Shown here: positions 545 to 33,500 of the stretch, piece by piece | How the letters are laid out: each line of letters opens with the position of its first letter | How positions within the stretch are numbered: position 1 is the first letter of the stretch | From: a virus | Reading direction: 5' to 3' (one strand) | IMG/VR virus record: IMGVR_UViG_3300042898_003434 | Location: 26,629-90,628 of that record | Length of the DNA: 64,000 nt | Made by a program: the position numbers and the translations under genes | Notes under the pieces: generated by a model | Databases searched by the model: none | Seen by the model: only the letters and a program-made list of their open reading frames with translations | What the model was told of the DNA's origin: nothing

Positions 545-1009
545 TCAATAATCCCCTGCCGCGTCGTTTAATTTATCGGCACCTTCGTCATAAATATTTT
601 CTAAGTCTTTAGGAAGAATAAATTCTTTTTTTATCTCTTCCCCCGCTTTAAATAACAACTGGGCTGTTTGGTTTCCGTTTTCGTCAAACACGTAAATGTC
701 TTCCGGCGCAATAATTTTAATTCCCTCAACTTCAAACCCACTACCTGGGTCATGTGTTCCTCTTTCACTACCGTATTCATAATCAAACCTGTTGTCGGCG
801 TATGCACCTTGGACTTCAACTTTAACTTCAACGTCATGCTGTGCTGGGACATCCTTCCCCATTTTCTTCGGATCTATTGTAACATTCGTAATAAATTGCG
901 CTTCTATATTTTCATTAAGAAGTTTCTTTTTTGTATTTAAGTGCTCAAGTACCAATTTCCTGTGCTTATTAAACGTGGCGTCGAACGTTGATATTTTTTT
1001 TTGTTCCAT
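545..1009 (-). CDS. hypothetical protein with candidate capsid-targeting leader
   Basis: 154 residues, not recognised. The body is acidic and looks like a compact beta-rich domain with several DEN/DGN turns. The first 35 residues are helical and basic: a TFDATFNKHRKLVLEH segment followed by LLNENIEA. The segment closely resembles the N-terminus of the flavodoxin-like protein at 31179-31949 (FEDTLLKHKKLLFEHFN). Both contain (L/I)xE tripeptides of the kind cut by T4-type prohead proteases. It lies directly downstream of 1011-1715 with 1 base between them, probably one transcript, ending at the terminator at 498-524. An AAAGGA sequence lies about 10 bases before the ATG, within the end of the upstream gene. 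I infer an internal head or virion-associated protein, with low certainty. Confidence 0.7.
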   Translation of the reverse strand: MEQKKISTFDATFNKHRKLVLEHLNTKKKLLNENIEAQFITNVTIDPKKMGKDVPAQHDVEVKVEVQGAYADNRFDYEYGSERGTHDPGSGFEVEGIKIIAPEDIYVFDENGNQTAQLLFKAGEEIKKEFILPKDLENIYDEGADKLNDAAGDY

Positions 1010-1010
1010 A

Positions 1011-1715
1011 TTATTTTTTTCCTTTCAACGCAGGTGTATCTTTCAGTTTGGTTGTTAGCTTGTCCGAACTTTCCATATCCTTATCAGTTTTTAAGTGTGC
1101 AGTTGTTGGCTCTGCTTTAGACTTTAACAAACGGTCAACAATCTTCTCGATCTTGTCAACGATTGAACCACCCAATTGAGCGGAACCATCTTTACCAATC
1201 GGAGCAGTTTGTTTATCAACTTTTTCGTCCGCTTTAACCGTCGAATCGTCCGCAATATCAATCTGCAATTCTTCATCAACATCATCCATTTTATCATCTT
1301 CTTTTTTATCATCGACCTTGACTGGCTTCTTTCCAAAACCCTTTAAACTCTTATCATATGCTTTTTGAACATATGTCTTTTCAGAATCACCCGCATGTTT
1401 CTTGACCAATTCCATAGCAGCTTCGAGAGAAACACCGCGTGCGATTTTTTTCTCGGATTCATTGGTAATAGACACAACATCATAGCAGTCATCGGAATTT
1501 TTATTTAATTGAATTTCTTGATTTTTAGTTATTCCCACCGTTTTTCCCGTTCCGCGAGCATGCATAACTGTTGACTCTTTACCCATTGATTTATTTAATG
1601 CATCCTCACCAGTTGTATCTTTTTTATCTGAATGGATCGATGTACCAAACTGATTATTGGTAATCTCTTGTATTATAAGTTTCTTGATGGCTTTTTTAAG
1701 AATGTCTCTGTTCAT
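1011..1715 (-). CDS. hypothetical lysine/aspartate-rich protein with SELK-like leader
   Basis: 234 residues, very charged and low in hydrophobic residues, with long Lys/Asp stretches around residues 130-165; probably disordered. The start MNRDILKKAIKKLIIQEI matches the signature shared by the proteins at 23806-27398 (M-x-K-S-E-L-K-x-L-I-x-E) and includes I-Q-E, a possible prohead protease site. A central part near residues 75-110 (SITNESEKKIARGVSLEAAMELVKKH) reads like a small folded module. No enzyme motif seen. It is followed after 1 base by 545-1009. Candidate scaffold or internal head protein; inferred from composition and leader only. Confidence 0.65.
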   Translation of the reverse strand: MNRDILKKAIKKLIIQEITNNQFGTSIHSDKKDTTGEDALNKSMGKESTVMHARGTGKTVGITKNQEIQLNKNSDDCYDVVSITNESEKKIARGVSLEAAMELVKKHAGDSEKTYVQKAYDKSLKGFGKKPVKVDDKKEDDKMDDVDEELQIDIADDSTVKADEKVDKQTAPIGKDGSAQLGGSIVDKIEKIVDRLLKSKAEPTTAHLKTDKDMESSDKLTTKLKDTPALKGKK

Positions 1716-1758
1716 AGTGTATATATGGTTTATTATATAAATAGTTCAATACACAAAG

Positions 1759-1782
1759 AAACCGCCAATTTATCGGCGGTTC
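1759..1782 (-). terminator. terminator-like hairpin after nrdA
   Basis: A 7 bp stem AACCGCC / GGCGGTT with an 8-base loop lies between the nrdA stop (1812) and the start of the next gene (1715). On the minus strand it is followed by TTTCTTTGTG, a broken T-run, so termination may be weak or partial. Confidence 0.55.
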
Positions 1783-1811
1783 TTGTTATTTTTTGAGCTT
1801 ATTATAATATA

Positions 1812-3461
1812 TTATGCCTCGCAGCTCTTGCACTCCAAAATACTGCGGCCAAGTTCTTGAGCAGGGTTGGTACCGCGTTGATAATAAAGACACTTTACGC
1901 CTTGTTCCCATGCGAATATAAGCAGTTCGTTGGCATCCTTGGCCGAGACTTTGGTGTGTATCTTTAAATTGATAGATTGACCTTGGTCGATGAACTTTTG
2001 ACGAGCAGCAGCCTGAATTATGATTTCCTTTTGAGAAATCTCGCCAAAGGTCTTGAATACATCCTTTTCGTCGTTGGTCAGAAATGTCAAATGCTGTGCA
2101 CTTCCGCCCTTGATCATGATAGATTTCCAAACCTCGGCGGTATTTTTTTCGTATTTCTTCAATACTTCTATTAGGTATGGGTTCTTGTAAGTAAACTTAC
2201 CTTTAGCCAAGTCCTTGGTGTAGTAGTTGGATTCAAGTGGTTCGACGGACGGGGATACTTGACCAAGAATAAATGAACTACTTGTGGTCGGTGCAATAGC
2301 CATTGTAGTAACATTTCGCAACCCATAACCTTTTAGGAGTGGTGGCTCACCATATTCCTTGGCCATTTCTTTACTAGCGGCAATACTCTTGTCGCGAATA
2401 AAACGATGAATTTGGGTGTTGAGCATTTTCGCTTCAAGAGATTCAAATGCGACCATTTTACTCTGTAAATAAGAGTGCCAACCAAGAGAACCAATACCAA
2501 GTGCACGTTGGTTTTTTGCGAAATTGTGAGCGGAGCGCATGAATTGAATGTTTTCAGTCGCCTTAATATAATCTTCCATAACAGCATCTAGGAAGTATGT
2601 AAGTGTTTCAACGGCATCTGAATTCTTCCATTGCTCGTAATGAAGTAAGTTCATAGACGATAAATTACAAACAAATGTTTCGTCCGGTGAAGAACTCAAA
2701 CAGATTTCGGAACAAAGATTTGAAGCGTGAATTTTCATCTTCTTATCTTTATATACTTGGGGAGCGTTATTGTTTACATTGTCCGTAAAGAAAATATACG
2801 GGTACCCACTCTCAAACCGCTTCTTAATAACTCGTGCCCAAATTTTGCGACAATCCGTATCACCGGCAACCATCTTTTTCATCCAATAGTCTGGCACACA
2901 AACTCCGATACTTAAATCTTGGATAGCATGGCCTTCTTCGCGAATATCAAGAAACTCGCTAATGTCAGGATGATCTATTGGTAGATATGCAGCAAAACTG
3001 CCACGACGAACGTTTGATTGTGACACCACGCGAGTGACACCATCAAACAATTCCATAAAGTGCACAGGCCCAGAACTTGATCCACCTACACTGATGCTTG
3101 CGCCTCGGCCACGCAATTCTCCGAAATAACCAGATGTACCAGCGCCGTATTTTGTTAACATACCAACTTCGGCAGTCTTTTCAAGAATTGACGCCATGTT
3201 GTCGGATATATATGAACCGTTGCATGAAATGGATAAACCACGGCCACTGCCAAAGTTTGCCCAAATAGGCGATGATAAACTATACCATCCCTTGTGCATA
3301 TAATCTTCAAACTTGTCGGCAAATCCCTTTTTATTCAAAATCTTTTCAGCAGATTCTGCAATTTGACGAATACGTTCAAGTGCAGTCTGGCCTTTTGCCA
3401 AATATCCTCTTTCAAGAAAGGTGATTGCTTCCTTGTTTAACCAATAAATTTCCTTTTGCAT
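1812..3461 (-). CDS. nrdA: class I ribonucleotide reductase, large (alpha) subunit
   Basis: 549 residues. The enzyme reduces ribonucleoside diphosphates to deoxy forms with NrdB, feeding phage DNA synthesis. Catalytic residues are in order: Cys80 (ISCNGSY) and Cys265 (FVCNLSS) as the redox pair, Asn248-Leu-Cys250-x-Glu252 as the radical site, Tyr526-Tyr527 in the radical transfer path, and a C-terminal Cys544/Cys547 pair for re-reduction. These equal E. coli C225, C462, N437/C439/E441, Y730/Y731 and C754/C759. It is much shorter than E. coli NrdA (about 760 residues): the N-terminal ATP-cone is missing, so dATP feedback through that domain should be absent. nrdB lies 5 bases upstream, so the two are almost certainly co-transcribed. 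Confidence 0.97.
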   Translation of the reverse strand: MQKEIYWLNKEAITFLERGYLAKGQTALERIRQIAESAEKILNKKGFADKFEDYMHKGWYSLSSPIWANFGSGRGLSISCNGSYISDNMASILEKTAEVGMLTKYGAGTSGYFGELRGRGASISVGGSSSGPVHFMELFDGVTRVVSQSNVRRGSFAAYLPIDHPDISEFLDIREEGHAIQDLSIGVCVPDYWMKKMVAGDTDCRKIWARVIKKRFESGYPYIFFTDNVNNNAPQVYKDKKMKIHASNLCSEICLSSSPDETFVCNLSSMNLLHYEQWKNSDAVETLTYFLDAVMEDYIKATENIQFMRSAHNFAKNQRALGIGSLGWHSYLQSKMVAFESLEAKMLNTQIHRFIRDKSIAASKEMAKEYGEPPLLKGYGLRNVTTMAIAPTTSSSFILGQVSPSVEPLESNYYTKDLAKGKFTYKNPYLIEVLKKYEKNTAEVWKSIMIKGGSAQHLTFLTNDEKDVFKTFGEISQKEIIIQAAARQKFIDQGQSINLKIHTKVSAKDANELLIFAWEQGVKCLYYQRGTNPAQELGRSILECKSCEA

Positions 3462-3466
3462 ATATA

Positions 3467-4441
3467 TTAAAAAATGTCGTCTGATGTGATTGATTGTGTT
3501 TTCTTGGCATACTCGACTGGGCGCTTATGAAAGAAATCAGTCATCGTGCTGCCCATTACATCCTCATCCATCCACATAGTCAATTCGATAATATCATTAT
3601 CTACTTCAAATATTTTTTTGAATCCAATCATCTCCAAGGAGGAATTCAAACGATTCTTTACATATTCCTTTAAGATTTCAGCACTGATCTTTTCGTCGCT
3701 GTAATCGCCAATCATCCAATCAATGATCTTACACTCAGCTTTATATGACTCAGCGGCTTCGTGTAAGATACGAGCTTCGAGTTCGTCGTCAAACAACTCT
3801 GGTAATTCTTCTCGGATTGTATTTACGATCTTTACACCGGCAAGAGCATGTAGAGTTTCTTCTTTGGCAGTATATGCAACTTGTTGTGCAGTATCCTTGA
3901 GCAATCCCTTGTAGCGATTGAACCAATTGATAATGTAAAATTGACTGAATAGCGACACATTCTCCACATACAGCGTGAAGAGAATAAGCGAGTATATATA
4001 CTGCTTGCGACTATCTTTATAGTGCTTGTCAAGATATTTGCGAAGATACTTAACGCGGCCTTGGATAATGTCAAGTTTAAGATTTTCTTCAAATACATCC
4101 TGTAGTTGGAGTACGTCTAGAAGCTTTTCGTAAGCATTATTGTGAATAACTTCGATATTACCCATGGTAATACCCAAATCGGACAATGCCGGATGTGGCA
4201 AATTGTCACCTAACTTGGTCCAGAATTTTTTGACGGAGATTTCTATCTGTCCAATGGCACTTAAAGCATTCTTAATGATTACTTGTTCTTCCGGTGTCAT
4301 TTCAGTTTTGTACTGCTGTAAATCACTTGTAAATGTGAATTCGTTTGGTGTCCAATGACCCGACCACATAGCATCAATATATTCTTGTGCCCAAGGGTAG
4401 CGGGTTGGTTTTCTTGCAATCTGCTCGTCAAATATGGTCAT
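3467..4441 (-). CDS. nrdB: class I ribonucleotide reductase, small (beta) subunit
   Basis: Holds the di-iron/tyrosyl radical cofactor that activates NrdA. The frame can be read from a TTG at 4471 (334 residues), but the ATG at 4441 gives a normal start (324 residues), so I chose it. In numbering from the TTG: carboxylate Glu77, Glu107-x-x-His110 with radical Tyr114 four residues on, Glu170, and Glu205-x-x-His208. The Tyr is kept, so this looks like a classical class Ia radical enzyme rather than a Tyr-less variant. The C-terminal tail ending SITSDDIF is the probable NrdA docking peptide. It precedes nrdA by 5 bases. No convincing Shine-Dalgarno sequence at either start. Confidence 0.97.
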   Translation of the reverse strand: MTIFDEQIARKPTRYPWAQEYIDAMWSGHWTPNEFTFTSDLQQYKTEMTPEEQVIIKNALSAIGQIEISVKKFWTKLGDNLPHPALSDLGITMGNIEVIHNNAYEKLLDVLQLQDVFEENLKLDIIQGRVKYLRKYLDKHYKDSRKQYIYSLILFTLYVENVSLFSQFYIINWFNRYKGLLKDTAQQVAYTAKEETLHALAGVKIVNTIREELPELFDDELEARILHEAAESYKAECKIIDWMIGDYSDEKISAEILKEYVKNRLNSSLEMIGFKKIFEVDNDIIELTMWMDEDVMGSTMTDFFHKRPVEYAKKTQSITSDDIF

Positions 4442-4512
4442 AATATTTCTTATAGTTTGTTGGTGTGGCAATAAATATGTTTTAGAAAAAGTAAATTTCT
4501 AAAAAATAAAAA

Positions 4513-5910: not shown

Positions 5911-5918
5911 GATTTTGG

Positions 5919-5947
5919 AATATATGGTAATAGGTGGTGCCCGTCAA
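5919..5947 (-). promoter_or_regulatory. sigma70-type promoter before the helicase gene
   Basis: On the minus strand TTGACG (5947-5942), a 17-base spacer, then TATATT (5924-5919). Five of six bases match in each box, with ideal spacing. Transcription should start near 5911-5913, only 1-3 bases before the ATG at 5910, so the mRNA would be nearly leaderless. The start site is predicted, not measured. Confidence 0.6.
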
Positions 5948-5955
5948 TGAAAAAA

Positions 5956-7005: not shown

Positions 7006-7050
7006 TTAATGAGAATCGCGTGGAGGTATTTCACTCCACACGACTGTTTA

Positions 7051-8271: not shown

Positions 8272-8297
8272 AATTTTAAATTTATAGAGGTTTATAT

Positions 8298-8341
8298 AAA
8301 AACGCCTATACACCAATTTGATATGGTGAATAGGCGTTTAT
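8298..8341 (-). terminator. rho-independent terminator after the SSB gene
   Basis: A long inverted repeat: AAACGCCTAT and CACCA arms pair with TGGTG and ATAGGCGTTT around an 8-base AT loop. On the minus strand it is followed by TTTTTATAT. It lies between the SSB stop (8370) and the recombinase start (8271). The T-run on the other strand is interrupted. Confidence 0.85.
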
Positions 8342-20849: not shown

Positions 20850-21770
20850 TCACTTTTTGACCGTTGGTGGCTTGGATATTTTATTAGAGCCACCGCCTTT
20901 AGATGCACTCTTATTGGCTTCTGCCTCGGCTTTCTTGGCTTCTACTAGTTTTTTTATGTAAAACGCACGCAGCATTGTTGGCATTTTATACACACCGTCT
21001 TGAGTAAATGCGCCATTACTATAATAACAAAGGTCAAATATCTCAGAGTGTATGTTCATTTTGCTTTCTGAGTTTATACCAAATATGTCCGGATTTATTT
21101 CTATCCGCGACTTCTTGGAAACAGAACATGATGGGCATGTGAAAGATATTTCATTTATATATCCAGGTATGCTCTTATTATAATAAGACCTGAAAGAATT
21201 ACTATCCACCGCGCCTAATTGTTGATCATAAAAATCTTCTATACCATCTTTTTCGACACCGTCGATACTCAATGTCATGCATTTTATAAATGTTAACCAA
21301 CTATATTCATCATATATCTTATGCTCTGCACAAGTTGGCAGTTTGAAATATACAGTTCGTTTGCATCTAGGAAATGTATATGATAGCTTATTCACGCCTT
21401 TCTCGCATCTAGAAAAATCAAACTGAACAGATCTAAATGCAAAAGAAATGTCACCCTCGTGTTCTTGTTCGCACGACTCGCATTTGTATTTTGTTTTAGC
21501 GACTGCACCGTAGTTTGCAATTCGTAAATTCAATAATATAGAATCACGGTCGCACTTCAACAGCGTGTCATAATCAATACCACCCACCACAACTTCGTTC
21601 AGAAATTCTTTATCAAGGATTCCTCGTTTAGCAAAGTTTGAATTGGATAGCAATTCTTCTTGCTTTGCTGTGATTGGGTATATACTGACCTTACCAGAAG
21701 ATAATATATGCTCTTTGGGATAGAAATATCCCTCAGATGCCAACTCTATTATCTCATAGTTTAAACTCAC
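20850..21770 (-). CDS. gp26-like baseplate protein with Cys pairs (copy 2)
   Basis: 306 residues. Starts with the pattern ELASEGYFYPKEHILSSGKVSIYPIT, then KQEELLSN and a D-rich LLKCDRDSILLNLRIANYG, the layout of the T4 baseplate protein gp26 family (SKGxxYPxxxxLSSGxxxIxxxTAxxEdiL). Two CxxC pairs (KCESCEQ near 97 and TCPSCSV near 212) could bind a zinc ion, forming a ribbon. It is a paralog of the upstream 21780-22616 gene, 9 bases away; both share the opening and the CxxC pairs. The C-terminal 30 residues are Lys/Ser/Gly-rich. It lies directly upstream of the tape measure gene. T4 gp26 belongs to hub assembly; whether the zinc site is real is unknown. Confidence 0.75.
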   Translation of the reverse strand: MSLNYEIIELASEGYFYPKEHILSSGKVSIYPITAKQEELLSNSNFAKRGILDKEFLNEVVVGGIDYDTLLKCDRDSILLNLRIANYGAVAKTKYKCESCEQEHEGDISFAFRSVQFDFSRCEKGVNKLSYTFPRCKRTVYFKLPTCAEHKIYDEYSWLTFIKCMTLSIDGVEKDGIEDFYDQQLGAVDSNSFRSYYNKSIPGYINEISFTCPSCSVSKKSRIEINPDIFGINSESKMNIHSEIFDLCYYSNGAFTQDGVYKMPTMLRAFYIKKLVEAKKAEAEANKSASKGGGSNKISKPPTVKK

Positions 21771-21779
21771 ACACAGCTA

Positions 21780-22616
21780 TCAATCAGTGATGTTTGGCCA
21801 GAAGAAGTTTGCACCAAGTGGAATAGATACTTTAGCTTGATGTCCACATGCTGGGCATGTAAATTCAAATGTCATATCCAAATCGGGTGTACTTTCTCTG
21901 ATAAATCTGCGTAATGCCAAACTATCTTTTGCGGTTAATTGAGTATCAACGAAGTTTTTGACTTTGGATCTATCAGAGTCACCTTCAATAGACTTAATTG
22001 TGTATTTAAGTCTAGTTGTGATTTCTGGAGATGCGGCATTTGCTCCCAGCTTGGCCAGCGCTTTTAATTCTTGCTCGATTTCTGATTCATCTTTGTGAGT
22101 AAGCAAACCGAACGTAATGGACTTACCTGATGTTGGCAGCGTAAATGCAAATCTGTTATCTCCCTTTGTTAACTTGGAAGTATCGATGTCTTTTTCAACA
22201 ACGTTGTCTAGATTAATATCAACCAAAGATTCAACGCCACATTCTGTGCATTTTACCTTTGTGGTATAAATTTCGCCATATGCACTCTTTCTGGCTGCAA
22301 TAAATAACGAGTTTTTGTCACCAATTAAAAGGTCGTTTATTGTAACATTTGGAGTAGCGATCAACGCTTTCAAGAATTCATCAAGAACAGTTCCTTTCTT
22401 CAGCAAGTTGGCGTTGCTAAGAATATCTTCGTGCTTGGCGGTGACTTGATATATTTCAATCGTTCCGCTGGACAATGGGCTGTTTTCTGGATAGAACAAT
22501 CCCTTGGACGGCAACTTTACCGTGATTGTTGGTAAAGTTGATTTTGTTGATTCTGATTGAGCAGCCACCGGTTTTGGTGCTGCGTTATTTTTAGCGACGG
22601 GTATATTTGATTCCAT
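21780..22616 (-). CDS. gp26-like baseplate protein with Cys pairs (copy 1)
   Basis: 278 residues. After a 30-residue Pro/Ala/Ser-rich start comes VKLPSKGLFYPENSPLSSG and TAKHEDILSNANLLKKGTVL, the signature of T4 gp26-like baseplate proteins. Then IGDKNSLFIAARKSAYGEIY, a first pair CTECG (about 125), and a second CPACGH (about 260), a likely zinc ribbon. It is related to the next gene (20850-21770) through the opening block, the D-x-N/S-S-L-x-R block and both CxxC pairs. A TATAAT sits immediately before the ATG at 22616, with no Shine-Dalgarno sequence. Confidence 0.78.
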   Translation of the reverse strand: MESNIPVAKNNAAPKPVAAQSESTKSTLPTITVKLPSKGLFYPENSPLSSGTIEIYQVTAKHEDILSNANLLKKGTVLDEFLKALIATPNVTINDLLIGDKNSLFIAARKSAYGEIYTTKVKCTECGVESLVDINLDNVVEKDIDTSKLTKGDNRFAFTLPTSGKSITFGLLTHKDESEIEQELKALAKLGANAASPEITTRLKYTIKSIEGDSDRSKVKNFVDTQLTAKDSLALRRFIRESTPDLDMTFEFTCPACGHQAKVSIPLGANFFWPNITD

Positions 22617-23805: not shown

Positions 23806-24705
23806 TTATTTCGCAACCACCGACGGTTCTCCGAGTTTGGATTTATCAACTACTAAATCAAGTGTTGAGCCTTGAAGTAGTTTATCGTCATAGAACAATT
23901 CCTCTAATTCTTGATACTTAGCTGAAACAGACGGAGTTAAATTATAATTTGCTAGATCTTCGATTCTATAAAGATTCTTTTCCATCTTGTCGTTACTGAT
24001 CTTACCAGACGGTAAACGGAAATCAAAATTTCCAATTTTTTTACCGTTTAATTTTACAATGACTTTAGAATTCGGTTTAGCGGATGTCATTGGTTGATCA
24101 TCACCGTCGTCTTCGGCGTCGTCTTCACTGGCATCCTCACTGTCGTCGGCACCCACGTTCGTTGATGGTGCCGCCGATGGTATCGTCGATGGTGCCGCTG
24201 CATCTTTCTTTGGACGACCCATTCCCTGAATACCTTTTGGAACATATGGTCCTTTTGGCGCTTCGGTTGGCATTCCGTCTGGATACAGCTCTGAATTTGG
24301 GTGTCCTTTTATTGACCATCCGGTTGGTGAGTTTGTATCTTCGACTTTGAATTTATTTCCGATACCGTATGCAACACCGTCTCTGATACTGGCTGGGGTT
24401 CTTGACATTTCATCTGTGCGATGTTTCTCTAGTTCTTCACGTATCATAGCAACAATATCTTCTTTCATTACGCTAGGCGTTGCTGGTTTTTTTACAACTG
24501 GCAGTTTCTTACCTTCTTGTTTTTCTTTTGGCTCGGAATTTGACGTGAGATTTTTATCGGTCGCAATTTTTTCTGTGTGTTCTACAGAATCGGATGTCTT
24601 TTTAAATCCAGACAAGCCTTTTGACTCTTCTAGTTTTTGTTGTCTAACGACAACAGCTTCTTGTACGATCACTTTAATTAGTTGTTTTAGTTCTGATTTT
24701 TTCAT
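23806..24705 (-). CDS. hypothetical protein with SELK-type leader
   Basis: 299 residues from ATG at 24705 (a longer reading to 24744 includes 13 codons upstream and is less likely). The start MKKSELKQLIKVIVQEAV is the signature shared with four neighbours; IVQEA may hold a prohead protease cut. Residues 20-95 are Lys/Ser/Glu-rich and probably disordered; a segment around 115-155 (GVAYGIGNKFKVEDT to SELYPDGM) looks folded; an Asp/Glu stretch near 180-205 follows; the C-terminal 80 residues (KVIVKLNGKKIGNFDFRLPSGK onward) resemble a small beta-grasp-like domain. No enzyme motif. Candidate internal capsid or virion protein. Confidence 0.65.
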   Translation of the reverse strand: MKKSELKQLIKVIVQEAVVVRQQKLEESKGLSGFKKTSDSVEHTEKIATDKNLTSNSEPKEKQEGKKLPVVKKPATPSVMKEDIVAMIREELEKHRTDEMSRTPASIRDGVAYGIGNKFKVEDTNSPTGWSIKGHPNSELYPDGMPTEAPKGPYVPKGIQGMGRPKKDAAAPSTIPSAAPSTNVGADDSEDASEDDAEDDGDDQPMTSAKPNSKVIVKLNGKKIGNFDFRLPSGKISNDKMEKNLYRIEDLANYNLTPSVSAKYQELEELFYDDKLLQGSTLDLVVDKSKLGEPSVVAK

Positions 24706-24715: not shown

Positions 24716-24952
24716 TTATTGATTGGGTTGAGCTGGATCTGCATTAACTGTCATATACAAAATACCATTGTTACTGTATACTTCGATGATTTCTAAATCA
24801 TGAGATCCATAATGAGTAAGAATTTTTACTTCTTTTACATTTTCACCTTGAATAATATCATTTAACTTACTCGCAATATCTTGTCCCTTAGATTCGGTTA
24901 TCTTACGACGAATTACTTCTCCTATTAGTTTTTTTAATTCCGATTTTTTCAT
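24716..24952 (-). CDS. small protein with SELK-type leader
   Basis: 78 residues from ATG at 24952; an upstream GTG at 24958 overlaps the previous stop and is possible. Starts MKKSELKKLIGEVIRRKI, nearly identical to its neighbours, with I-G-E at residues 10-12. The rest is a compact alpha/beta piece (KEVKILTHYGSHDLEIIEVYSNNG in two runs, then ILYMTVNAD). Unknown function. Translated in a tight set with 24955-25311 upstream and 23806-24705 downstream. Confidence 0.65.
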   Translation of the reverse strand: MKKSELKKLIGEVIRRKITESKGQDIASKLNDIIQGENVKEVKILTHYGSHDLEIIEVYSNNGILYMTVNADPAQPNQ

Positions 24953-24954: not shown

Positions 24955-25311
24955 TCACTTTGCGTATTTTTTTTGCAACGATTCGATTTCTTTAGCAATC
25001 TTTGCTGAGTTTTGTTGGACCTTGGCTTTTTGTTGCTCTAGGTCTTGGGTCTTTCGCATAACAGGAGCTTTTAATTTTTGAATAGCACCATCGATCTTCT
25101 GATTGTCATTATTCAATTTATCTTGTTGCTTTTTCAAGTTGGCCATCTTAACTTTATCTGAGTCCGACATATTCGAAGAGTCGTCCGCCGACTTTTTCTC
25201 GTCCTGTGGTACGTTTGATTGTAATGGAGCGTCTGTTGCTCCCAACGTTGCCTCTTTTAACTTTCTTTTTACCATTTCTTTTATAAATTCTTTCAACTCT
25301 TCTTTATTCAT
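24955..25311 (-). CDS. coiled-coil protein with SELK-type leader
   Basis: 118 residues. Start MNKEELKEFIKEMVKRKL has the same signature, with I-K-E at 10-12. Residues 30-50 are Ser/Asp-rich; 50-118 form long coiled-coil with Lys/Gln heptads (KVKMANLKKQQDKLNNDNQK and onward). No enzyme motif. The gene is the first after a strong sigma70-type promoter (25378-25407), with a leader of about 60 bases, so it and its two followers are probably made early or at any time host polymerase is active. Confidence 0.7.
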   Translation of the reverse strand: MNKEELKEFIKEMVKRKLKEATLGATDAPLQSNVPQDEKKSADDSSNMSDSDKVKMANLKKQQDKLNNDNQKIDGAIQKLKAPVMRKTQDLEQQKAKVQQNSAKIAKEIESLQKKYAK

Positions 25312-25434: not shown

Positions 25435-26268
25435 TTACTTACCGTGCATTTTTAGCAATTGAATAGCAAGTTTCTTTATTTCGGTTGCATGATCAACTTC
25501 TTTTTTTTCATTAGGATCATTCATGTCAATTTCGCCGCCAACTTCGTCTAGTTGACCGTGCATTTTCAAAAACGCATCGATGTGTTTTTTCATCTTCTTC
25601 GCAATACCAACTTCTTGTTTTTCTTCCGGATTACTCATGTCGGCTTCGTCATGATTTTCTTTGATATTATACATTTTTCTAAATGCATCATATGCATACG
25701 TAACGTCTCCGGAAAATGCATAAACACCAATGTCCTTCTTTCCGTTTGGATATTTTGCGTTAACAAATTCAAATTTTTGACCACTCATCATAAACGGTTC
25801 TTCGTCTCTCATTTGGCTTATATATTCAACATACAAAGGGGCTTCTTCTGTAGATTCATATAAACCTTCTTCGCGGTCAGCGCAAGCAGAGCATTGATAC
25901 CCCTTTTTCTTTTCCCAAGAACTTAATGCATCTGGTGTATTACATGTTGGACATTCGTGACGAGATTTGTCTTTTTTGTTATGCGAACTTATCTTATCGT
26001 TATATTTCATGCGCTCTTCCGCATCTGGATCATAATCTTCATTCTTACCTTTCTCTTCATAGGCCATCCACATTTCACTGATTCTTTGGTCGCCCTCATT
26101 CTTTTTATTATGAATAGTCCACATTGTGGCATATGCTCTGGCTGGATTTTTTTTGTATTTAGACAACAGCTGCTTTTCTAACGCACGAGGAAACTTTGGT
26201 GGGGCAGCTTCCGTCATAGCTTCACCAATAGCTTCGTTGATAAGATTCTTTAATTCCGATTTATTCAT
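25435..26268 (-). CDS. hypothetical protein with zinc ribbon, repeats and SELK-type leader
   Basis: 277 residues. Start MNKSELKNLINEAIGEAM gives I-N-E followed by Ala, close to the T4 internal-protein pattern FIAEA. Residues 20-75 include YKKNPARAYATMWTIHNKK. A zinc ribbon of CPTC near 106-109 and CSAC near 129-132 follows. The C-terminus has two copies of about 30 residues: DMSNPEEKQEVGIAKKMKKH with AFLKMHG, and DMNDPNEKKEVDHATEIKKL with QLLKMHG. The HNH endonuclease gene upstream overlaps its start by 4 bases. Not recognised as an enzyme; possibly a DNA-associated internal virion protein. Confidence 0.65.
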   Translation of the reverse strand: MNKSELKNLINEAIGEAMTEAAPPKFPRALEKQLLSKYKKNPARAYATMWTIHNKKNEGDQRISEMWMAYEEKGKNEDYDPDAEERMKYNDKISSHNKKDKSRHECPTCNTPDALSSWEKKKGYQCSACADREEGLYESTEEAPLYVEYISQMRDEEPFMMSGQKFEFVNAKYPNGKKDIGVYAFSGDVTYAYDAFRKMYNIKENHDEADMSNPEEKQEVGIAKKMKKHIDAFLKMHGQLDEVGGEIDMNDPNEKKEVDHATEIKKLAIQLLKMHGK

Positions 26269-26876
26269 AATGTTTTACATTTATTTGAGTGTTTTGTTAA
26301 ATTTCCTTTATCCAAGCATTTACCGCAATTTGGACAAGGATACTTTTGTCTTTTTATCGCTGCTTGGGATTTTTTTGAACGAGCTAATTCTGGATCCGAT
26401 AGTGTCATTTTAATTCCTTTGTTCCACGATGGTTTTCCTCGTCTTGATTTTCCTGGATCTCCAGCAGATATCTTCTTACTCACGGTATCTGAATCATACA
26501 TTTCAGTCCAGTGCTTTATTTCTCCACTATTAAGTTTCATTTTGAGAGTTTTTGATGTCTTCAATTTGGTCAATTCGGAATGAGTTCTTCCCTTACTTGC
26601 CACAGACCTTTGTTCGAACGTCCACCCGCAAAATCCAAGTTTTTCTTTTTTGGATTTTTGTCCTCCAAGTTTTCCTCCGATGGACGCCCATTTGATCCCG
26701 TCGTGATTATGTATTTTTGCATGTTCCTCCGCCGACACCGCAATAAGGTTATGTATATCATTGTTGTATGGATTTCCGTCAACATGATGGATATGATAGC
26801 CATCTGGAATAGCGCATTTATGAGCCTCATACAAAGCTCTATAATTAACATTTGCTAATTTGTGGTGCTTACTCAT
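26265..26876 (-). CDS. HNH homing endonuclease
   Basis: 203 residues. The HNH core lies at about 27-56: YHIHHVDGNPYNNDIHNLIA with HAKIH after it, giving the paired His, the Asn and the closing His. A C-terminal zinc finger CPNCGKCL then H-x5-C follows (about 180-198), with basic NUMOD-like segments such as SRRGKPSWNKGIK between. Free-standing HNH endonucleases cut DNA near their insertion and spread by recombination. It lies between two genes with the SELK leader, overlapping the downstream one by 4 bases (ATGA), so it inserted without disturbing the operon. Confidence 0.88.
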   Translation of the reverse strand: MSKHHKLANVNYRALYEAHKCAIPDGYHIHHVDGNPYNNDIHNLIAVSAEEHAKIHNHDGIKWASIGGKLGGQKSKKEKLGFCGWTFEQRSVASKGRTHSELTKLKTSKTLKMKLNSGEIKHWTEMYDSDTVSKKISAGDPGKSRRGKPSWNKGIKMTLSDPELARSKKSQAAIKRQKYPCPNCGKCLDKGNLTKHSNKCKTL

Positions 26877-26879
26877 GAC

Positions 26880-27398
26880 TCACCATTTTCTACAACTCCA
26901 ATATCTCGCAGATGTTCTATCTTTCGCAGAAGAACATTTATGTCTTGCCCTGAAACTCTTGCGGCGCTTTGGATTGCTCTTTTTGATTCTCATATTTGGA
27001 TCACCAAAATTGACTTTCTTTACTTTTCCGGTTTTTGGATTCTTAACAAAAACTTTCGATTTTTTTACATCGCCCTTCATAGGAACGCCAAGTTTAACTT
27101 TACGACCACGATATTCTGCCTCTTCAATCTTAGCATCTGCATTAAAATCTCCATACATTTCATAGAATTCATTGCCTTCACATGTATGCTCATCGCCCTC
27201 TGGAATCATGTCCCATTTTGGTGATTCGTAGTATTCTTCCAAATCTTCCTCCTCGTTGACTGGTACACAGTTTGGTACTTCTTTCCCATTCTTTTTCTTT
27301 GTGCCGTATGCTGTGTAGCCTTTCCAACACGGATTTTCCATTTTAGTTACTTCTTCAACAGCCTCACGGATCAAAAGTTTAAGTTCGGATTTAGTCAT
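26880..27398 (-). CDS. conserved phage protein with SELK-type leader and Cys-rich ends
   Basis: 172 residues. Start MTKSELKLLIREAVEEV has I-R-E then Ala at 10-13. Two parts look conserved: PCWKGYTAYGTKKKNGKEVPNC (about 23-44, two Cys) and the C-terminal GDPNMRIKKSNPKRRKSFRA with RHKCSSAKDRTSARYWSCRKW (about 132-172). I recall the second pattern from hypothetical proteins of marine T4-like phages, where it has no proven function. A basic, Cys-containing end could bind DNA or zinc. The first gene of its set; a TATAAATA copy lies at 27414-27421. Confidence 0.72.
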   Translation of the reverse strand: MTKSELKLLIREAVEEVTKMENPCWKGYTAYGTKKKNGKEVPNCVPVNEEEDLEEYYESPKWDMIPEGDEHTCEGNEFYEMYGDFNADAKIEEAEYRGRKVKLGVPMKGDVKKSKVFVKNPKTGKVKKVNFGDPNMRIKKSNPKRRKSFRARHKCSSAKDRTSARYWSCRKW

Positions 27399-27451
27399 AG
27401 TTTGCGATGTGTATATAAATATAACTCCCTATGTAAAAAAAGTATAAGTGC

Positions 27452-27483
27452 AAAAAAAATCCCCCTCAAAACGAAGGGGATTG
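27452..27483 (-). terminator. rho-independent terminator after the tail tube gene
   Basis: Stem ATCCCC(TTC) / (GAG)GGGGAT with a TTTT-type loop, followed on the minus strand by TTTTTTTT. It lies 20 bases past the tail tube stop (27504). Confidence 0.85.
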
Positions 27484-27503
27484 TATATAAAAAAGAATAT
27501 ATC

Positions 27504-28001
27504 TTAGTATTCCAATACGCAATAGTCCATTGCGATGGTGATGCTAACCATTAGTGGGTCGCCACCGTTACTCCAATCAAGAGCTGTGGTGTTGAAATTA
27601 ACCGATGATGGGAAAGCGCCGTAAATAGACCACTTTTCAACTTTATCGCCCACTGGACCAAGAACGTCGATGGTTAGAGTCTTCTTATAGAAGTCTGCAT
27701 ATCCGTTACGACCAGTAACAGACTCGTGACCTAGACGTACCCATTCCATAACAGCTTGAGCTGCGGATGGAACGATTGGGTCGTATAGAGTCACTTCAAT
27801 GTCTTGCCATTCAGATTTACCCTTCAACTTACGTTTCAAGTTGATGTGGTCTAGTGTGATTGGATTGTTGTTGATTTGAGGACGACCCACGGCTTTAATT
27901 AAATAAGCTGGGATACCGTCGATACCCATGATGAAGCGGTTAGCCACCTTTGGTTCGAAGGCCGTAAAGAAGATTTCGTTTGATGCTAGTAGTTCTGCCA
28001 T
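27504..28001 (-). CDS. tail tube protein, T4 gp19-like
   Basis: 165 residues, the usual length for gp19-type tube subunits. Seen: IFFTAFEPKVANRFIMGIDG at the start, an INLKRKLKGKSEWQDIEVTLYDP stretch, VMEWVRLGHESVTGRNGYA, TLTIDVLGPVGDKVEKWSIYGAFP, and a final SITIAMDYCVLEY; all typical of the contractile-tail tube family. Hexameric rings stack to form the DNA conduit inside the sheath. In T4 it lies next to the sheath gene; here the two are about 6.4 kb apart, separated by accessory genes. A terminator follows. Confidence 0.93.
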   Translation of the reverse strand: MAELLASNEIFFTAFEPKVANRFIMGIDGIPAYLIKAVGRPQINNNPITLDHINLKRKLKGKSEWQDIEVTLYDPIVPSAAQAVMEWVRLGHESVTGRNGYADFYKKTLTIDVLGPVGDKVEKWSIYGAFPSSVNFNTTALDWSNGGDPLMVSITIAMDYCVLEY

Positions 28002-28047
28002 AATATTTTAAATGATTAGTTGTTATTTTACCTTGACAATAGATAAA

Positions 28048-28076
28048 TAAACATTACAATCAAGAAATCATATAAT
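28048..28076 (+). promoter_or_regulatory. candidate promoter for the plus-strand gene block
   Basis: TAAACA (28048-28053), a 17-base spacer, and a perfect TATAAT (28071-28076), about 50 bases before the ATG at 28128. The -35 box matches at four positions only, so this is tentative. The gap 28002-28127 also contains the leader of the tail tube gene on the other strand. Confidence 0.4.
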
Positions 28077-28127
28077 ATTTAATAACTATTTTACTATTTA
28101 TCCTTATATAAACTAAAAGTATATAAT

Positions 28128-29714: not shown

Positions 29715-29998
29715 AAAAACCGCTTGCAACTTATAATATCGAAATAAACGAAACTGATAGTAGGGGTGATTCCTCCTTGATTTGGGTGGCAATCCTTGAC
29801 CGCCGATTTAAGTGTGAAGTTCAACGCACTGGTACTCGCCAAGCAAACCTTTTCATATTTGATTCAAAGAATAATGACAATATGATATATGAGTCTAGAG
29901 TTCCATTGTCATATGACGCGAAGTTTGGGCCTGATATTAGCGACGTTGCTGAATGGCAAGATATGTGTGCAAAAGTAGTCGACGGGATAATAAACTGA
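29711..29998 (+). CDS. hypothetical protein
   Basis: 95 residues, not recognised. It starts inside the end of the endonuclease gene (ATGA overlap), so is translated with it. The fold looks like beta strands followed by an acidic helical end (DISDVAEWQDMCAKVVDGI). No catalytic motif, signal or membrane segment. May belong to the mobile unit with the endonuclease or be a passenger gene. Confidence 0.6.
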   Translation: MKKPLATYNIEINETDSRGDSSLIWVAILDRRFKCEVQRTGTRQANLFIFDSKNNDNMIYESRVPLSYDAKFGPDISDVAEWQDMCAKVVDGIIN

Positions 29999-30005
29999 TA
30001 GGTTT

Positions 30006-30440
30006 ATGAACATATTCAACATCGAAAGAGCATTTAGTGATAAAACTACTAAAAAGTGGGAGAAGCTTTTTATTTGTGTGGATTTACATGATACTATTAT
30101 TCAGGGAAAATACTCGTCGAAAACCGAAGATGTGAAGTATCTACCGAACGCAATAAATGTTCTACGGAACTTGAGTAAAAGAAAAGATATTGTACTTATT
30201 CTTTGGACTAGTTCACATGTTGCTCATATAAAAGATATACTAGACCAATTGGAAAAACAAAGAGTATATTTCAAGTATGTAAACTGTAATCCGGAATGTC
30301 CTGATGATAAGCTATGTGACTTTGGGCACAAGTTTTATATGAACATAGGACTAGATGATAAATTTGGCTTCGACGGTCTCGGTGGCGATTGGTTCCTTGT
30401 TGAAAAAGAACTAAAACGAATTGGGGAATGGAAAGAGTAA
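30006..30440 (+). CDS. HAD-superfamily phosphatase-like protein
   Basis: 144 residues. Motif I is VDLHDTI with Asp26 as expected nucleophile and His28 where most HAD enzymes have a second Asp. Motif II lies in LILWTSS (about 64-70), and motif IV in GLDDKFGFDG (about 117-126). The short length and absence of a clear cap domain fit a small HAD phosphatase such as a nucleotidase or PNKP-like enzyme; substrate unknown. It starts 7 bases after the previous gene (which stops at 29998), with a modest AGGT before the ATG. Converges on 30442-31131 with 1 base between stops; no terminator is visible there. Confidence 0.7.
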   Translation: MNIFNIERAFSDKTTKKWEKLFICVDLHDTIIQGKYSSKTEDVKYLPNAINVLRNLSKRKDIVLILWTSSHVAHIKDILDQLEKQRVYFKYVNCNPECPDDKLCDFGHKFYMNIGLDDKFGFDGLGGDWFLVEKELKRIGEWKE

Positions 30441-30441
30441 T

Positions 30442-31131
30442 TTAAAGTTTCTCAATAAAACATTCCAGTTCGTCTTTTGAACTAAAACGAAACGCTGATT
30501 TTTGAGACATAACATTTTTGTTGTTTTTGTCAAACATATGAGACATTGTGAATTTCCTGCTTTCGTGCATTTCTTTTTCTAAAGCTGTGCGATAATCTTG
30601 AACAGTTGATTTGCACCATTCTCCTTTGGTGGCTAGTATTTGATGTTGTTTTAAGTGTTCACCTAAATGATGCCATAGTTCTCCGTCATATGTAAAAATC
30701 CGTGGAGATGGTTTTGTTACCAAAATAAATTTAGGTAGGTTTAACAATTTCCATTTAGCGTCAAACTCGTCACAATCAAGATTCTCGTTTTCCTTTAAAA
30801 ACTCGTTATATTCACTGGATTCTATTGACCAGAATTTATTTCTGTCACAATAAACAGACTCATATTCAGGATGTAAGTCGGTAATAATATTATTTTTATT
30901 GTCGCGCACATACATAAACTTTGCACCGGTTACTTTTGGATTTTTTGTGCAATCTGCTCCAAGTAAAAACATTTCGTAATGTGGCCACACAAAGCAATAA
31001 AATCCACGTGTTGATGGTGGAGAATGAAAGGTTTCCGGAATACACTTGTAACCACGTTGGTTAACAGAACTTAATCCACCAAACCGTGCAAATTTAAGCT
31101 TGCTTGTTTTGCTTATGTCGTATTTAGCCAT
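30442..31131 (-). CDS. conserved hypothetical phage protein
   Basis: 229 residues. Contains FARFGG near 15-20, then ETFHSPPSTRGFYCFVWPHY with FLLGADC (about 33-60), and later FTYDGELWHHLGEHL. I have seen a similar FHSPPxxRGxYxF pattern in hypothetical proteins of large phages, without a known function. No nucleotide-binding or metal motif is certain, although several His/Asp/Cys residues could bind a metal. Minus strand, first gene after the plus-strand block. Upstream (31137-31165) a perfect TTGACA occurs without a good -10. Confidence 0.6.
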   Translation of the reverse strand: MAKYDISKTSKLKFARFGGLSSVNQRGYKCIPETFHSPPSTRGFYCFVWPHYEMFLLGADCTKNPKVTGAKFMYVRDNKNNIITDLHPEYESVYCDRNKFWSIESSEYNEFLKENENLDCDEFDAKWKLLNLPKFILVTKPSPRIFTYDGELWHHLGEHLKQHQILATKGEWCKSTVQDYRTALEKEMHESRKFTMSHMFDKNNKNVMSQKSAFRFSSKDELECFIEKL

Positions 31132-31178
31132 ACGATAGCAAGATTGACCAACAATTATAAAATGTCAAGCAAATCGTA

Positions 31179-31949
31179 CTAATCTTTTATCTTAACACCA
31201 AAGTCTTTTTCAAATTGTTTTGGAGCGGCTTTATAGCTTTCAGCCGTTTCGTCTTTTGGATCTTTTAGATATTGCCAGTTTAAACTTAATACGTCGGGTA
31301 CTTTGAATCCAAAAAATTTCAATACTTGTTTTTGAATGTCAACAACCGAAGACCCGTTCCAATTTTGTCCAATTACAACTAATCCTGCTTCTTTATCTGC
31401 TATGATGTTGTCTTCTTTAAGAGTGCTATGACGATTTTCCAACCAAGCCAAGCGTTCAATCAATTTTTGATAAATTCCATTGGTTTGTCCCCAACGAGTA
31501 CTAACAAAAAATACAATTGCATCTGCTTCAAATAAAGGTTTGGTTATTTCCCACAACTCGTCGTCTTTATTATTAAAGCTACACCAACATCTATGATTTC
31601 CAGTTGGATTTTTCGCATCGTCTTTTAATTTAGAAGCCTTTACTCCACAGTTATTTCCTTCGTGTTTACTTACATTACCTTCACAGTCGTATATTTTTAA
31701 TTTACTGGCGTCTATTACTGTGGTATTGCCTAATTGTTCTGAGATATATTCAGCTAAAATTGTACTTTTTGCTTTTTGTTTATCTCCAACCCAACGGTTG
31801 CTAGTTGTGACAAATAACACTTTATTTTTATTCTTTAAATGGTTTATTAGTTTATCAACCTCGGAAACCATGTTCTCTGATTCATTTAAATTAAAATGTT
31901 CAAACAATAGTTTTTTGTGTTTTAAAAGTGTATCTTCAAATGTATTCAT
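31179..31949 (-). CDS. flavodoxin-fold NAD(P)H-dependent FMN reductase-like protein with head-targeting-like leader
   Basis: 256 residues. From residue about 43: VLFVTTSNRW (FMN phosphate loop position), ADAIVFFVSTRWGQTNGIYQ (third strand and isoalloxazine loop), and GLVVIGQNWNG; a Cys-rich insert (NNCGV and HRCWCSF) lies between. This matches the NAD(P)H-dependent FMN reductase/flavodoxin-like fold. The first 30 residues are extra and do not belong to that fold: FEDTLLKHKKLLFEHFN then NESE, closely resembling the start of the unknown protein at 545-1009. A reductase carrying an internal-head-type leader is unusual. Substrate unknown. 4 bases after the nucleotidyltransferase gene. Confidence 0.75.
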   Translation of the reverse strand: MNTFEDTLLKHKKLLFEHFNLNESENMVSEVDKLINHLKNKNKVLFVTTSNRWVGDKQKAKSTILAEYISEQLGNTTVIDASKLKIYDCEGNVSKHEGNNCGVKASKLKDDAKNPTGNHRCWCSFNNKDDELWEITKPLFEADAIVFFVSTRWGQTNGIYQKLIERLAWLENRHSTLKEDNIIADKEAGLVVIGQNWNGSSVVDIQKQVLKFFGFKVPDVLSLNWQYLKDPKDETAESYKAAPKQFEKDFGVKIKD

Positions 31950-31953
31950 TTTG

Positions 31954-32892
31954 TCAAAAGCCCCAAGTAAATTTTATCTTGTTATGTTCGCGTGGATCCT
32001 CAATGAAGTAAACTTTAGATCTACCGCTCATGAAACTGCCAGATTGTCCTTTGAGAAATTTCATTTGGGCGGGTGATGGAGTTACATGCATTGTCATTGT
32101 ATTTCCATTTCTATCTGGGCGTTGAAATGAGTTTACCGCGTTTATAAAAACAGTATATGCAATATTACCAGCCCCTTCATCCAATACATTTTCTTTTACA
32201 CTGACCTTCTTGTCATATATCTTGTCGATATTGTCCTTGAGTTTATCTAAACTACCGGCATATCTTAAAATTTTAAAAACAATGTTTTCTTCAGACAACT
32301 CACCATTTGAATCAAGTCCTGCTTGTCTGTATTTATACAGTTTCTGTAACAATTTCTTTAAACCGACATCGTCGCTAGAATTTACCAAGGTGTTGATTTT
32401 CTTGTGAAACTCTTTATATTTCTTTTTGATAAGCTCTTTGTTTAAATTTAACTTTTGCTTGATCGGTTCTTTCAACCATTCATTCTTTAACACAGAATAT
32501 TCAGATGAAGAAACAGCAACATGTTGTATGTCCTGAACATATAGCTCAACGTCATGTCCTTTTACGGTTATATCGTGTTTCAAGTTCCACGCTGTCTTTA
32601 TAGCGTCAAACATTGTTTGTGCATCTTCTTTGGACATATCAAGTTTTGAGTAGTCTGTTTTAATGTGCAAGTCTATGTCTGAATATATGGTCCAATTATA
32701 GTTGGTTATTGATCCAATCATAACAACGTCTTCTGCTTTTATGTTGATCTGCTTCTCTACCTTCAATTCTTTAACAAAATCTAATGCAACCTTCAATAGA
32801 CCGGCGCGAACATCTTGTTTGATTCTCGGACCATCTTCATTAATGTCCCATACTTTGGGACAAAGAGTTTCGTTATATAATGGATAGTTCAT
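31954..32892 (-). CDS. nucleotidyltransferase-fold protein
   Basis: 312 residues. The motif MIGSITNYNWTIYSDIDLHI gives Gly60-Ser61 and Asp72-x-Asp74, the metal-binding signature of the Pol beta-type nucleotidyltransferase superfamily; a third acid may be Glu-116 in DVELYVQD. The middle (about 145-220) is helical and basic, and the last 70 residues contain a separate MTMHVTPSPAQMKFLKG segment. Members transfer a nucleotide to proteins, RNA or small molecules, and some are toxins (MNT). Here it sits between the HAD phosphatase and flavodoxin-like genes on the same strand. Target unknown. Confidence 0.78.
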   Translation of the reverse strand: MNYPLYNETLCPKVWDINEDGPRIKQDVRAGLLKVALDFVKELKVEKQINIKAEDVVMIGSITNYNWTIYSDIDLHIKTDYSKLDMSKEDAQTMFDAIKTAWNLKHDITVKGHDVELYVQDIQHVAVSSSEYSVLKNEWLKEPIKQKLNLNKELIKKKYKEFHKKINTLVNSSDDVGLKKLLQKLYKYRQAGLDSNGELSEENIVFKILRYAGSLDKLKDNIDKIYDKKVSVKENVLDEGAGNIAYTVFINAVNSFQRPDRNGNTMTMHVTPSPAQMKFLKGQSGSFMSGRSKVYFIEDPREHNKIKFTWGF

Positions 32893-32900
32893 ATTTAATT

Positions 32901-33500
32901 TTACACGTCTGGTAAAAATGCCTTTAATTGATTAATACTACTTGCCGCGCTCGTGTGCAATATACCAATGCGATGCAATGCTTGGTTGTCCCACACCGTT
33001 ATATTTCTTTCCATGTCGTCAACCAACACATGTGTGACTCTTCCCTTTGATGGAAGAATATATTCTGGTTTCTTTTCTCCGGCAGATGCAATTATTACTT
33101 TAACAGTTGGATCAATATGCTTGCGTATCCAAGCGGTTTTTTGTTGTGCGATGTCTGCACCTTGACCAGCACTTAAAATAACTGCCGGTGGAGTTTTGAA
33201 ATTATCTTTTACAAAATCCCATAAGACTTTTGAGTCTGGCATAGGTTCTAGGTTCAACCAAAAGTTGGGTGTGTTGTTGATCAATTGCCAAAACTTTTTC
33301 TTTGCTGCTTTTTTATCGCCTTTTAGTTCTGGGGATGTATGCAAATCTTCTGGAGTAAAGCCACCGGATATTTTTTTGAATCCTTTGTTCATGTCGGTTA
33401 AAACTCCATCCATGTCCACGTAGCATTGTATTTTTAGCGGCGCACCTTCAACGGAATCCTCAACGGCTTCTCGTAACAATTCTTTTAATAATATACTCAT
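32901..33500 (-). CDS. HAD-family phosphatase with LREA-type leader
   Basis: 199 residues. Motif I VDMDGVL with Asp29 and Asp31, motif II at ILSAGQG (about 108-114), a Lys near KPEYILP, and motif IV LVDDMERN (about 163-170). It fits the HAD phosphatase group that includes 5'-nucleotidase-like enzymes. The first 20 residues, MSILLKELLREAVEDSVEGA, lie before the fold and have the capsid-targeting pattern: helical and basic, with L-R-E then Ala at 9-12. Its start overlaps the GIY-YIG gene stop by 4 bases. With 31179-31949 it is one of two enzymes in the window with such a leader. Confidence 0.82.
   Translation of the reverse strand: MSILLKELLREAVEDSVEGAPLKIQCYVDMDGVLTDMNKGFKKISGGFTPEDLHTSPELKGDKKAAKKKFWQLINNTPNFWLNLEPMPDSKVLWDFVKDNFKTPPAVILSAGQGADIAQQKTAWIRKHIDPTVKVIIASAGEKKPEYILPSKGRVTHVLVDDMERNITVWDNQALHRIGILHTSAASSINQLKAFLPDV

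Follow-up and report, generated by a model that had tools for sequence, protein, structure and literature searches.

What does a short N-terminal leader do when it recurs on a set of otherwise unrelated phage proteins? The question is raised by a 64,000-nucleotide stretch of viral DNA (the window), which covers positions 26,629–90,628 of the IMG/VR virus record IMGVR_UViG_3300042898_003434, a fragment of 90,628 bases without end repeats and with 77 gene calls. The phage is contractile-tailed, its sheath, tube and two hub-type genes matching tail families. The original prediction described seven window proteins that start with a short basic helix and an (L/I)xE or close tripeptide and two more that share a second leader, and likened these leaders to the capsid-targeting sequence (CTS) of phage T4. 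The nine open reading frames and their N-termini are exactly as written there (genes are named here by their first window coordinate), and with three genes left of the window the 90-kb fragment holds up to twelve candidate tagged genes. Comparison of sequences suggests that the leaders are probably T4-like capsid-targeting propeptides, removed by a gp21-type protease and loading a variable payload.

The leader exceeds chance expectation by a wide margin. A 19-position profile was built from 50 families of other phages, with four representatives from two near relatives removed; 6 of the 77 genes of the record score at least 8 with it, against 0.01 expected from shuffled first 30 residues and 0.000 from the rate at internal positions. 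A stricter profile lacking all eight near-relative representatives (46 families left) again gives six matches in the record (0.018 in shuffles). Five of the tight-profile matches lie in the window (23806, 24716, 24955, 25435, and 26880) and one outside it (473–916, L004). The two remaining members of the predicted seven, 32901 (score 3.0) and 1011 (−1.2), are left out by this profile and are matched only as variants, with scores of 11.4 and 10.5, by a looser profile containing the record's own seeds. Together with 545 and 31179 they appear to carry variant or second-type leaders backed by ortholog conservation, 545 being the weakest. The similarity noted between the second leaders of 545 and 31179 is real, but among the loci compared this leader is confined to 545 and the orthologs of 31179, and a homolog of 545 was not found there. 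At the level of sequence, the SELKxLIxE leader on several proteins of the record is real.

The same leader is common in viral contigs, where at least 120 stretches match a degenerate DNA motif encoding MKK(S/T)ELKx(L/I/F)IxE and none matches a reversed-peptide control. The 80 of these loci that were taken into the leader-locus analysis contain 87 distinct proteins, 82 of them of at least 55 residues, and the parts of these 82 beyond residue 24 fall into 54 clusters (E ≤ 1e-4). The short leader at the extreme N-terminus is accordingly borne by several unrelated downstream families, and the lack of relationship first noted for the window proteins holds across viral contigs. Synonymous codons vary across phages at the leader positions examined (e.g., six for Ser4 and three for Ile10), which argues that selection acts on the peptide. 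A typed consensus leader gave no match in the phage collection, the query being probably too short for tblastn, and the family MKKSELKNIIKECVKEVIFEEGVLSG had no match among isolates. A third leader class was observed on gene runs starting MKIxEIxxE or similar (L365, L361, L380, and L348), loci in which a prohead protease was not recognised.

An [LI]xE motif, read as a sequence signature, marks the leader end. It was counted in the 54 cluster representatives over residues 13–30, outside the fixed part of the scan pattern, and is present in 37 of them versus 21.0 in shuffles (z 4.4; 0 of 1000 shuffles reach the observed count), while [LI]xE[AGS] occurs in 12 versus 3.5 (z 4.8). The controls [LI]xK, [LI]xD, and Ex[LI] are without clear excess (z 1.6, 0.7, and −0.6), and the [LI]xE excess is absent further in (9 vs. 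9.4 in residues 31–48; 9 vs. 10.4 in residues 49–66). Part of the signal is not register-specific, since [LI]xxE[AGS] is raised too (9 vs. 3.3; z 3.3). Of the 37 representatives, 27 have the Glu of their first [LI]xE in residues 13–30 at position 16 or 20, and the 17 representatives without the motif in this interval all have one at residue 12 by pattern. For the MKKSELK class a cut at the second [LI]xE, with Glu mostly at residue 16 or 20, is more likely than one near residue 12. Two of the tripeptides first reported need adjustment: the leader of 23806 has VQE (residues 14–16), the ortholog-conserved [LI]xE being LEE (25–27), and the tripeptide seen in 545 is VLE (20–22), its strict LxE being LNE (31–33).

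The enzyme that would use such sites is found in phages of the same clade, as matches to gp21 (Peptidase_S77, PF03420) above the cut-off that themselves bear a self-processing-like [ILV]xE N-terminally. Nine aligned clade gp21 proteins share an invariant Glu (E21) in an [LI]xE near their own N-terminus (IxE↓S or IxE↓A; the arrow marks the predicted cut), and in another set of 80 loci a fitting site, with INE↓S as its commonest form, is present in 72 of 75 distinct gp21 N-termini. In the major capsid protein, [IV]xE followed by A, S, N, or V occurs in all 27 distinct N-termini. Because gp21 and capsid N-termini bear the same kind of site, the leader signature would be the expected specificity of the clade's protease. 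PF03420 exceeds the cut-off in 7 of 24 relatives found via the tail tube. It is also present in 21 of 33 leader contigs versus 1 of 15 arbitrary-pattern contigs (p = 4e-4; contigs of at least 30 kb among 80 listed of at least 120 leader loci and among 80 of 118 control loci), sets that are unmatched for habitat or length, so that shared ancestry alone could produce the difference.

Orthologs of individual cargo proteins place the predicted cut with some precision. Before the conserved downstream sequence, P3 (L, I, V, or M) and P1 (E) are fixed, while P2 and the other preceding residues vary. Distinct fitting junctions number 13 of 13 in the 5'-deoxynucleotidase (dNTase) family of 32901, 5 of 5 in the 25435 family (leaving out the L013/L014/L167 member, MMTE↓T), and 4 of 4 in the 1011 family. 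The 23806 family has [LI]xE before KGLSG in 6 of 7 distinct members, the miss being L167, where the site is shifted by one residue; the 24955 and 31179 families were not counted as junction evidence, their patterns having contained the E. The largest set comes from HVA1, a family name taken from the annotation of Roseobacter phage homologs: [LIVM]xE↓A stands ahead of the domain at every one of 49 distinct junctions, 34 of which have strictly [LI] at P3, and P2 is any of ten or more residues; the homologs counted are those caught by a fixed domain pattern, which excludes divergent ones (e.g., L395, NLGE↓A).

Cultured phages divide by the presence of PF03420. Ten isolates were read of the 26 records with an HVA1-type match, and five of the 19 with a dNTase match (the HTVC008M dNTase from a neighbouring stretch). 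The four that bear PF03420 have the HVA1 site (immuto LDE↓G, Melnitz MME↓S, HTVC008M LEE↓A, and C48C1 LTE↓A), whereas none of the six without PF03420 fits [LIVM]xE↓[AGS] before HVA1 (4/4 vs. 0/6; p = 0.005). Five of these six have an HVA1 reading frame whose start (e.g., MAKYKGRTVKL) coincides or nearly coincides with that of the domain. In the sixth, CRP-6, the domain is preceded by LEE↓D, a misfit, yet there is no clean start either.

Different leaders can hold the same place on the same cargo. The GP88-type protein starts with MHIKLKSILAES in this record and with MKKSELKKIISES in L177. The HVA1 protein has MTKSELKLLIREA here, MKEEQLKNII(R/K)EM in L177, L204, and L328, and MKINEILSEA in L330. 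The dNTase leader ILLKxLLKE is conserved and the linker behind it differs in length; M1, L4, L5, and E11 are invariant in nine sequences of the 32901 leader. A different tagged gene (MKKSELAELIAEVISEI, DUF6321) stands where 545–1009 would be in G029, a syntenic relative. With one cargo bearing leaders of several types, how the core recognises a tag becomes testable.

The position of tagged genes in relatives is consistent with loading into the head. G021 and G009 both have leader-bearing genes (MKKSELQEIIREEIMKSLITE; MNRSELKKYVTKILLE; MKITKKELREVIQEV) in the interval from gp21 to a scaffold-like gene. Upstream of its terminase, gp20, gp21, and capsid genes, the isolate Flavobacterium phage immuto (host Flavobacterium sp. 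LMO8) has MKKSELVKLIKEEL, MKKSQLREIIRKEL, MKKSQLRQIIKEAL, and a dNTase starting with MKKVMGNLADLLLEE. In the gp21 loci, the leader rate up to three genes from gp21 (gp21 excluded) is 40/417 versus 29/546 further away (p = 0.012), or 40/417 versus 22/522 with terminase-like genes removed (p = 0.001). The T4-type targeting and processing proposed in the original prediction is supported by this arrangement, by the exchange of leaders on one cargo, by the N-terminal enrichment, by the unrelated downstream parts, by the specific [LI]xE excess, and by a free P2 with fixed P3 and P1.

In excerpts of PMC9026906, the T4 prohead protease is described as cutting after L/I-X-E, the ADP-ribosyltransferase Alt as packaged by T4, and the CTS as a suggested route by which T4-like phages take in various proteins; an excerpt of PMC3012670 presents the T-even internal proteins as diverse, with the CTS alone conserved. 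PMC9026906 also reports for T4 that Asp in place of the cleavage-site Glu at position 10 leaves a protein that enters the head yet is not cleaved. The leaders described here resemble the CTS of IPI, IPII, and IPIII as putative short N-terminal propeptides on unrelated candidate head proteins, with a predicted [LI]xE cut and variable cargo (excerpts of PMC9026906 and PMC3012670). They differ from it in forming a basic helix of SELKxLI type in which [LI]xE frequently occurs twice, and the up to twelve candidates in one 90-kb fragment, enzyme folds included, are unlike the T4 internal proteins. A likeness to Alt is provided by G029, whose tagged ADP-ribosyltransferase (MIKLKDLLNE↓IQ) has [LI]xE directly before the domain (Pfam ART-PolyVal 6.5e-13, starting at residue 14 just after the leader); this gene is known from G029 only, outside the window record, and the likeness is one of enzyme class, orthology not being established. 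L173 was considered as a similar protein and set aside, as Pfam gave no match and ADP-ribosyltransferase identity is not claimed for it. The phages phiKZ and SPN3US likewise have head proteins with N-terminal propeptides that are cleaved behind a short Glu-terminated motif, but this motif is A-x-E in SPN3US and S-x-E in phiKZ, and several SPN3US propeptides exceed 100 residues (excerpts of PMC5694885). Flavobacterium phage immuto is similar to the record in having three or more leaders of MKKS type, PF03420, and a 5' nucleotidase with a leader-like N-terminus, and unlike it in its cargo set. The leader strings were not found in the literature searched, and tags of this kind were not mentioned in the titles and abstract openings listed there; that literature did not extend to subscription papers or bioRxiv preprints.

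For this phage we infer docking, cleavage, packaging, and ejection as follows. A basic amphipathic helix of about 10–30 residues would dock each protein on the scaffold core of a T4-type prohead, and a gp21-family serine protease would then cut after [LI]xE, releasing the cargo within the head. The freed cargo, a fast-changing set of unrelated proteins, would leave the head together with the DNA.

Several observations weigh against packaging of this kind. PF03420 and the capsid profile PF07068 were not found in the record, itself a fragment, nor was PF03420, or PF07068 above the cut-off, in the closest tagged relatives G001, G007, G008, G029, G083, and G084, so that only phages further removed show the protease; a weak PF07068 match in G029 was rejected as the capsid gene because it falls in an 87-residue frame where no gene is called. 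Only 5 of 27 contigs with HVA1 homologs (at least 30 kb) have PF03420, the A1 profile matched 0 of 22 HVA1 contigs in a search without a positive control, and S78 matched 0 of the 8 tested. The 201-kb contig of L405 is one HVA1-bearing example in which PF03420 gives no match. Four of the six HVA1 loci read without a recognised protease have the MKIxEIxxE leader class on gene runs. The dNTases of Caulobacter phage Cr30 and Stenotrophomonas phage RAS14 are untagged although both phages are PF03420-positive, so a gp21-bearing phage need not have a tag. Junctions from related phages do not count as independent events; the effect of gp21 neighbourhood is modest and the loci are partly redundant, and the effect is overstated by the offsets −2 to +3 (39/345 vs. 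30/618, p = 4e-4), which were picked after viewing the table. Residues 4 and 7 of the T4 CTS are Tyr and Phe. Its targeting residues are at these positions (excerpt of PMC9026906) and are not shared by the five tight-class window leaders, which have Ser or Glu at position 4 and Lys at position 7; because these residues differ, the leader would work like a CTS and is not the T4 CTS itself.

Tail genes surround the tagged run in the window, several tagged genes lying between sheath, tube, and hub genes, and in G021 and G009 a gene with a leader-like N-terminus lies in what its neighbours indicate to be the baseplate region, where a protein destined for the inside of the head is not expected. Extracellular contractile injection systems use N-terminal loading signals, and the leader might analogously load cargo into the tail tube or dock it on the baseplate instead of the head. 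This destination is nevertheless unlikely given the tagged genes between gp21 and the scaffold-like gene (G021, G009) or upstream of terminase, gp20, and gp21 (immuto), a cut-site signature that fits a prohead protease, and the HVA1 homologs of the six PF03420-negative isolates, which are without a leader of this kind.

The leader also shows strong hydrophobic periodicity, as would a generic amphipathic helix serving oligomerisation or partner binding, in which case [LI]xE would mirror helix composition and packaging would not be involved. The raised [LI]xxE[AGS] count favours such a helix, as do the terminase-like genes, 7 of 24 of which score as leader-bearing although terminase is not expected inside the head; these scores are false positives of the loose profile. 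This reading has a small probability in view of the clear excess of [LI]xE, with no clear one for [LI]xK, [LI]xD, or Ex[LI], and of a fixed P1 and free P2 directly before conserved sequence. A single DNA segment that is duplicated or recombines (a translation start region or mobile cassette), kept at the DNA level and without function in the protein, is a very improbable source of the leaders: three leaders of the record are close at the DNA level and HNH and NUMOD/GIY-YIG-like genes stand among the tagged ones, but the examined leader positions use synonymous codons across phages and quite different leader sequences hold the same place on the same cargo.

A wider and more tentative proposal can be made, which at present seems possible yet somewhat doubtful: that in uncultured phages of the T4 superfamily lineage-specific, exchangeable N-terminal tags (SELKxLIxE, ILLKxLLxE, TFxxTxxKHxKL, MKIxEIxxE, and MxxFKxFxxE types) load a large, fast-changing payload of injected enzymes, part of which acts on NAD and nucleotide metabolism (ADP-ribosyltransferase, quinone/FMN-reductase fold, nucleotidase, and nucleotidyltransferase-like proteins), and that the injected proteome is readable from sequence. 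Injected phage proteins can take effect immediately, as T4 Alt does in host take-over and IPI in anti-restriction, and as a rule only proteomics of virions from cultured phages reveals them. The tags may let the injected payload be read directly from DNA: a tag with a predictable cut site would list the injected proteins and mature ends of uncultured phages and would give the function-unknown families HVA1, GP88, DUF7178, and DUF6321 a testable location.

Cargo kinds in the record comprise a nucleotidase (NT5C), a quinone/FMN-reductase fold, HVA1, GP88, and DUF7178 (Table 1). The NT5C match of 32901–33500 (Pfam 1.5e-6) is above the curated cut-off (28.6 vs. 24.8 bits), while the FMN_red match of 31179–31949 (1.2e-4) is under it (22.2 vs. 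24 bits). A low-confidence AF2 model of the latter (mean pLDDT 59.9), used for fold class alone, gave Foldseek matches to 5mji (3.3e-6) and NQO2 (2e-5), suggesting similarity to NAD(P)H quinone/FMN reductases at fold level only. Homologs of 24716–24952 were absent among the fetched loci. In several tagged lineages (L322, L365, and L419) a leader-like N-terminus stands before a cytidylyltransferase/NMNAT-like protein (FGRxNPPTxGH); the two such proteins tested gave weak Pfam matches.

Table 1. Coordinates of leaders, predicted cargo, and marker genes (window positions unless a locus is given; ↓, predicted cut)
Feature	Position	Strand	Evidence
Leader of 23806–24705 protein, residues 1–27 (MKKSELKQLIKVIVQEA...KLEE), predicted cut before SKGLSGFKK	24625..24705	−	Profile match
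Leader of 24716–24952 protein (MKKSELKKLIGEVIRRKITE↓S)	24893..24952	−	Profile match
Leader of 24955–25311 protein (MNKEELKEFIKEMVKRKLKE↓A)	25252..25311	−	Profile match; orthologs MKKSELKELIREIVVRKLNE, MKKSELRIIINEIVQRKLKE
Leader of 25435–26268 protein (MNKSELKNLINEAIGEAMTE↓A), before conserved PPxFP	26209..26268	−	Profile match; [LIVM]xE junction 5/5 distinct
Leader of 26880–27398 protein (MTKSELKLLIRE↓A)	27363..27398	−	Profile match
Whole region upstream of HVA1 domain; predicted second cut KIEE↓AEYRGRKV after residue 93	27120..27398	−	Ortholog junctions
HVA1 domain, predicted mature cargo, stop codon included	26880..27119	−	Domain comparison, ortholog junctions
Variant leader MSILLKELLRE↓A of 5'-deoxynucleotidase gene 32901–33500	33468..33500	−	Pfam NT5C, conservation, junctions 13/13
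Variant leader MNRDILKKAIKKLIIQE↓I of 1011–1715	1665..1715	−	[IL]xE before conserved NQFG in 4/4 distinct
Second-type leader MNTFEDTLLKHKKLLFEHFNLNE↓S of 31179–31949	31881..31949	−	Kept in orthologs
Predicted mature cargo of 31179–31949, flavodoxin-like NAD(P)H quinone/FMN reductase fold	31179..31880	−	Pfam sub-cut-off, Foldseek
Second-type leader of 545–1009 (MEQKKISTFDATFNKHRKLVLEHLNTKKKLLNE↓N)	911..1009	−	Weakest of the nine
Leader-bearing gene MTNEDLKKLIAECVQEV, outside window	L004:473-916 (record position 473-916)		Tight-profile match
Leader-like N-terminus MHISLKSLLTEYIDEV, left of window	L004:11282-12031		Profile score 6.0; DUF7178 6.5e-27
Leader-like N-terminus MHIKLKSILAESMNEI, left of window	L005:62-1216		GP88 9e-18
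Tail sheath, marker of structural gene cluster	34375..37362	−	phrog_23 4.6e-75
Tail tube	27504..28001	−	phrog_4542 2e-23
Two baseplate-hub-type genes, adjoining tagged run	20850..22616	−	phrog_150 1.8e-14 and 2e-22

Other genes of the record were noted in passing. The HNH (3.8e-10) and NUMOD3/GIY-YIG-like genes among or beside the tagged ones are at window positions 26265–26876 and 33497–34249. Near the left end of the record, CsgG (5.9e-49), FecR, and CHASE2-adenylate/guanylate cyclase genes are grouped at L004:3394-8398; either the phage carries genes for curli-type export and signalling or the end is chimeric and this part is host DNA. Adjoining the sheath, window positions 37873–46799 hold a series of similar genes of about 350 residues (MSLPxLEWRKLP... 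type; the first without a Pfam match), possibly receptor-binding variants. Positions 47839–63909 encode very long proteins of TASYA-type repeats as well as, at 49500–54914, one containing long Thr-Pro repeats.

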